Assembly (NCBI GenBank): GCA_022826485.1
Contig: JAJDUU010000052.1
Span: 10,001 to 70,691 of the forward strand
Reading direction: 5' to 3'
Length of the DNA: 60,691 nt
DNA from: Chloroflexota bacterium
GTDB lineage: Bacteria; Chloroflexota; UBA11872
Within the stretch, counting starts at the first letter, position 1. Each line of letters begins with the position of its first letter. Made by a program: the position numbers and the translations under genes. Below are positions 1 through 343 of this stretch, one piece after another. A model generated the notes under the pieces. It saw only the letters and a program-made list of their open reading frames with translations, was not told the DNA's origin and made no database searches.

Positions 1-343
1 CGCGCGCCAGCCTTTCGAACGCATCCACGTCGAGCCCGATGATGCGCTCCTCGCCATGGACCACGATCGGCCGCCGCACCACCACGTTGTTTTCGTCCAT
101 GATTCGCAGCGCCGACTCGTCATCCAGGTCCTGGTGCGCGATGCCCAGCTTTCGAAAGGCCGGACTGCGCGGATTGACAAACGAGGCTGCCGCACCGCTG
201 CCGACGATATCGGCCAGCTCCTCTGGCGTCAGCGGACGTCGGGCGTAATCACGCGGCTCGTACTCGACGCCGGCTCGGTCCAAGGCCGCACGGGCCTTGC
301 GACAGCTGTCTCAGGTACTGCGGAAATAAAACCGCGTCGTCAT
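1..343 (-). CDS. ArsC/Spx-like thioredoxin-fold protein, candidate selenoprotein (3' end outside window)
   Basis: Reading leftward from the ATG at 343, the frame begins MTTRFYFRST, meets TGA at 313-311, then continues DSCRKARAAL with no further stop to the window edge. Past the TGA the protein has the ArsC/Spx family pattern: SCRKA after the first strand, a 'SPAFRKLGI' segment, and 'VVRRPIVV' near the C terminus. Family members have CxxC here (Spx: C-x-x-C-R-K-A), so the TGA stands exactly at the first redox Cys, giving UxxC. A perfect 7-bp hairpin with G as second loop base follows 18 nt after the TGA. The start overlaps the stop of the upstream dehydrogenase (ATGA, 343-340), which supports this frame. 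Likely role: thiol/selenol redox or arsenate-reductase-like chemistry; substrate unknown. Alternatives are a nonsense-mutated pseudogene or a base-call error. No sel genes are in the window. Confidence 0.72.
281..313 (-). promoter_or_regulatory. Candidate bacterial SECIS element downstream of in-frame UGA
   Basis: On the minus strand the UGA (313-311) is followed by the 10-nt palindrome GACAGCTGTC and then by the hairpin CAAGGCC-CGTGC-GGCCTTG. The arms are 299-293 and 287-281 and the loop is 292-288. The 7-bp stem is perfect. The loop starts 18 nt after the UGA and its second base is G. Known bacterial SECIS elements have an apical loop roughly 16-37 nt past the UGA with a G among the first two loop bases, so this fits. 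SelB binding is inferred. Confidence 0.6.

Follow-up and report, generated by a model that had tools for sequence, protein, structure and literature searches.

Selenoproteins of the ArsC family were reported in 2005, in a form with a UxxS motif (PMC1088965), and both UxxS and UxxC forms were described in 2008 (PMC2398784). The UxxC form is also listed in reviews of 2022 (PMC9312934) and 2026 (PMC13188914). Two other members of the same fold are relevant to the locus analyzed here. Spx is a regulator whose contact with the alpha-CTD of RNA polymerase requires Gly52 (PMC2801614), and YffB, which does not have the full arginine triad of ArsC, is regarded as a thiol reductase (PMC3169414). A preliminary description of this locus stated, correctly, that ArsC-like selenoproteins had been found in marine metagenomes (PMC1088965, PMC2398784).

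The gene and its in-frame UGA

The window, the whole stretch of 60,691 nucleotides that was analyzed, carries a candidate UxxC selenoprotein gene of the Spx/ArsC-like group at its left end (2-343, minus strand). Translation with TGA as U gave a frame beginning MTTRFYFRST-UGA-DSCRKARAAL, with 114 visible codons, a single in-frame UGA and a match to PF03960. This agrees with the preliminary description of a family-like frame closed by one UGA. The ATG lies at 343-341, and the UGA, codon 11 at 313-311, opens the UxxC motif (Sec11, Cys14). Codon 114 ends at base 2, the edge of the window, where the frame is still open; further left the contig consists of N, and the stop codon of the gene is, therefore, outside the visible sequence. 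Close relatives are 114-120 residues long and end 0-6 codons beyond codon 114. The span originally marked, 281-343, was in the right location and covers just the 5' end of the gene. The reported overlap with the upstream gene was also seen: the ATG shares bases with the UGA stop (342-340, minus strand) of a zinc-binding dehydrogenase (MDR) gene, as ATGA. The dehydrogenase reading frame occupies 340-1473 on the minus strand and matches PF00107 (E 2.8e-20).

Homologs were compared across the order and the phylum. The 24 genomes of the order that were searched, among them that of the window, yielded 19 homologs; every one of the 19 has a single in-frame UGA, at this codon, and they are 35-91% identical to the window protein. 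Among 400 genomes of the phylum there were 57 matches, 40 of which carry one in-frame UGA. All 40 genomes with a UGA-bearing homolog have a strong selA, which is weak evidence because selA is present in 320 of the 400 genomes anyway. The same UGA also occurs in named MAGs from other assemblies. In homologs without the UGA (L046, L049, L055, L057, and L062), the position is occupied by Cys, in line with the claim that the UGA falls at the redox Cys. Downstream of the UGA the dN/dS is about 0.17, with a range of 0.16-0.28 among members of the genus at a dS of 0.26-0.60, and the read-through frame is therefore under purifying selection. The frames of relatives downstream of the retained UGA were intact and selected rather than eroded.

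All four components of the selenocysteine machinery that the preliminary description had named were present in the window's genome, that of a Chloroflexota bacterium: tRNA-Sec (71.3 bits, anticodon UCA), selA (492.7 bits), selB (312 bits), and selD (378.9 bits). The selD gene (L015:1441-2520; G000:C17:29894-30820) contains an in-frame UGA of its own, in GAG-U-ACKLSP, which is the usual Sec/Cys site. SelD is thus predicted to be a second selenoprotein of this genome. Further interrupted genes were sought in the window by codon usage; the candidates looked, by eye, like neighbouring genes or wrong frames and were rejected.

Sec and Cys forms are intermixed in one tree of the homologs. In family f11, two members have Sec (L040 and L052) and one has Cys (L046), and the Cys gene is without the hairpin discussed below. 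This pattern suggests Sec/Cys exchanges, including one in or close to f11, in a tree whose deep branches are weakly supported. With Sec and Cys forms in one family and the hairpin present or absent accordingly, f11 is a handy case for the study of such exchange. No homolog was found in the viral contigs searched. The gene is seemingly absent from one genome (G004), and this is not a clean loss: the dehydrogenase match stops at residue 322, after which the frame continues for 2119 codons, a pattern also seen at other unreadable stretches. In a second genome, G003, the dehydrogenase ortholog is absent too.

A bacterial SECIS-like hairpin and the reading of the UGA

Downstream of the UGA, at 281-299 on the minus strand, lies a hairpin with a 7-bp stem (CAAGGCC/GGCCUUG) and the 5-nt loop CGUGC, in which the second base is G and the third is U. 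Its loop lies 18 nt after the UGA, as had been described, and its energy when folded in isolation is -10.5 kcal/mol. Published constraints for bacterial SECIS elements are a loop of 3-9 nt, a stem of 4-16 bp, a G at loop base 1 or 2, a spacing of 16-37 nt, and an MFE of at most -7.5 (PMC13188914). The window element is within all of these.

Taken alone, the window hairpin was not significant. An equal one arose in 16% of synonymous-codon shuffles (p 0.16), and the 61-nt region around it folded no better than its own shuffles (z 0.20). Because of the result with synonymous shuffles, the case was not rested on this hairpin. The preliminary view that the signs together exceed chance was borne out by homolog comparison and the Sec machinery, but not for the hairpin of a single sequence.

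Comparison among relatives was more informative. Within the window's own family (18 sequences), codons 16-21 (AAG GCC CGT GCG GCC TTG) hardly vary at their silent sites, and the fraction of identical synonymous codons reached 0.92 in the best 7-codon window compared to 0.65 for codons 22-100. One relative, L033, shows a compensatory change from AAGGCC/GGCCUU to AAAGCC/GGCUUU, a G-C to A-U replacement that keeps the CGUGC loop; the L033 hairpin, when isolated, is less stable (-6.6 kcal/mol). The hairpin of 24 distant UGA homologs has 8 bp and sits at 22-23 nt, 4-5 nt further down than that of the window, with loops that include GUU, GUG, GGC, and GGU. The covariation score of this set was 0.396, with 27 doubly changed cells; shuffles gave 0.158 +/- 0.024 and slid controls no more than 0.248. 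At least 6 of the 8 pairs are kept in 19 of the 24, compared to none of five Cys homologs of the ArsC family, which retain just 4 or 5 pairs. The hairpin is not formed at the common position in the other 5 of the 24 UGA homologs; among these exceptions, L034 and L043 form a hairpin elsewhere and L035 has just a weak one. Silent-site freezing, covariation, and absence from the Cys homologs indicate that the hairpin is selected as RNA.

We consider the in-frame UGA to be a true selenocysteine codon, and the gene to encode an Spx/ArsC-like UxxC selenoprotein, with a probability of roughly 0.95, as judged from sequence. Comparison is what decides the matter, because it provides the UGA conservation, the frozen codons, the compensatory change, the covariation, and the absence of the hairpin from Cys homologs. 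One alternative is that the UGA is an ordinary stop in a pseudogene or a miscalled TGC or TGT. Only one base separates UGA from a Cys codon, and the insignificance of the window hairpin by itself would fit this explanation. However, the same UGA recurs in other genomes down to 35% identity and in the named MAGs mentioned above, and the codons beyond it are under purifying selection. A pseudogene or sequencing error was, thus, rejected on the conservation of the UGA across genomes and seems extremely improbable. Another possible explanation for an in-frame UGA that is read through is that this genome has reassigned the codon to Trp or to some other residue. This has a negligible chance of being correct and was also rejected, since the tRNA-Sec(UCA), selA, selB, and selD are all present, homologs carry Cys and not Trp at the position, and the upstream dehydrogenase gene terminates at UGA. 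Under the selenocysteine reading, the hairpin would recruit SelB with Sec-tRNA-Sec to UGA codon 11. The resulting selenoprotein would have a thioredoxin/ArsC-type fold and a length of about 114-120 residues.

Protein family and probable role

The protein matched PF03960 (ArsC) with an E-value of 2.5e-13 and 50.6 bits, compared to a gathering cut-off of 24. The top NCBIfam match was the Spx/MgsR family, TIGR01617, at 69.5 bits, just below the cut-off of 75.05; two UGA-bearing relatives, L034 and L042, pass this cut-off (relatives reach 81.8 and 86.9 bits). More specific models were not reached: NF002459 (Spx regulator) gave 52.1 bits against a cut-off of 123, NF008107 (YffB) gave 40.6 against 121, and TIGR00014 (glutaredoxin-type arsenate reductase) gave 36.9 against 106. 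An AlphaFold2 model built with Cys in place of Sec had a pLDDT of 95.5. Its best solved structural match was YffB (1rw1; Z 16.6, rmsd 2.3, 113 aligned), followed by Spx (1z3e; Z 16.3, rmsd 2.1, 114 aligned) and ArsC (Z 12.9, rmsd 2.5, 113 aligned). The best sequence match in the PDB was Spx.

In an alignment of 32 sequences, the Sec11/Cys column, Cys14, Arg91, and Pro92 were invariant. Of the catalytic, arsenate-binding arginine triad of E. coli ArsC (R60, R94, and R107), two members are kept as R59 and R91, and the third is replaced by Leu104. With this third catalytic Arg missing, an arsenate reductase is less likely than a thiol or selenol redox protein. Sec11 and Cys14 would form a UxxC selenol-thiol pair beside the conserved Arg91-Pro92, in which Sec11 may attack and Cys14 may resolve during reduction of a disulfide or selenenylsulfide. 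From fold and motif, it is reasonably likely that the protein reduces disulfides or selenenylsulfides in the manner of a glutaredoxin or thioredoxin. The preliminary term "ArsC-like" is appropriate at the level of the family (PF03960); within it, Spx/YffB-like describes the protein better than true arsenate reductase does.

With Sec decoding unchanged, the protein could instead be an Spx/MgsR-like switch that binds the alpha-CTD of RNA polymerase and alters transcription when a Sec-Cys bond forms. The TIGR01617 scores of the protein and its relatives, the PDB sequence match, the near tie of Spx with YffB in structure, and the alignment of Spx Arg60 and Arg92 with R59 and R91 speak for such a switch. 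Nevertheless, the Spx-specific model is far under its cut-off, and Gly52 is not evident, as it aligns with Ala51, which adjoins a 2-residue deletion in the alignment. In addition, close relatives are shorter than Spx (131 residues), and the fold is common to the YffB and ArsC enzymes, so that we regard the switch as unlikely. The more specific proposal of a Chloroflexota transcription regulator, in which a Sec11-Cys14 selenenylsulfide would be the sensing bond of a selenium-dependent stress response, is a speculative one that we rate slightly lower. A true arsenate reductase, with Sec replacing the catalytic Cys12, is doubtful and would be the least expected of these roles. Membership of PF03960 and the naming of such proteins in earlier papers favor it. 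The low TIGR00014 score argues against it, as does the Leu at the R107 position, whereas one Cys homolog, L055, keeps this Arg and almost reaches the TIGR00014 cut-off; moreover, no ars gene was found adjoining the selenoprotein gene. Probably, the selenoprotein can be called neither an arsenate reductase of the classical type nor an established transcription regulator, and the disulfide reductase role remains our preferred reading.

Gene neighbourhoods were compared and no operon partner conserved across clades was found. Neighbours differ by clade and, thus, no partner points to a pathway. They include the dehydrogenase and an RraA-like protein in the window's own family, a chlorite-dismutase-like protein with DUF309 in clade f46, and a GATase/SIS protein in f5. 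In f48, the neighbour is an AP-endonuclease-type TIM barrel, and in three genomes of this family an endonuclease-IV-like TIM-barrel gene follows the selenoprotein gene (L077:4450-5340, L078:4476-5324, and L081:4495-5340). Two genera of another clade have a chlorite-dismutase-like gene, possibly HemQ (L076:4605-5318 and L080:4632-5450), with the selenoprotein gene directly after it and then a DUF309-like gene. In the same genus as the window's genome, two tandem proteins with a CxxCxxCC (YkgJ-like, PF03692) domain are convergent to the selenoprotein gene (L067:4054-5703 and L068:550-2198), and a similar CxxCxxCC-domain protein is nearby in the sister genus (L071:6890-7645).

Comparison with known ArsC-superfamily proteins

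One of the closest known groups is the GOS "Arsenate reductase 2" (cd03032, 42 sequences; PMC2398784), which also belongs to the ArsC superfamily and has Sec first in UxxC; the GOS set comes from marine prokaryotes. The "Arsenate reductase-like protein" with UxxC, modeled as NF041106 (ArsC_rel_Se_1; PMC13188914), shares the motif, the superfamily, and the presence of Sec. However, the window protein scored only 27.3 bits against the NF041106 cut-off of 85, and this cut-off was reached in 0/251 genomes of the phylum. The Sargasso/GOS "Arsenate reductase 1" (PMC1088965, PMC2398784) is likewise an ArsC-family selenoprotein with a bacterial SECIS, but has UxxS where the window protein has UxxC. 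Spx/MgsR regulators share the fold, the CxxC position, and the Arg60/Arg92 equivalents, and differ in that the window protein has Sec in place of Cys10, is shorter, has no evident Gly52, and falls under the Spx-specific cut-offs. YffB is the same length and has an incomplete ArsC arginine triad as well; Brucella YffB has a single Cys (PMC3169414), where the window protein has UxxC.

The Chloroflexota genes thus represent a well-supported selenoprotein branch outside the sole curated model for ArsC selenoproteins. Since NF041106 misses this branch, its genes are likely to be cut short or overlooked in standard annotation. UxxC selenoproteins of the ArsC/Spx-like group are already known, and the Chloroflexota branch is an added member of that group, beyond the reach of NF041106.
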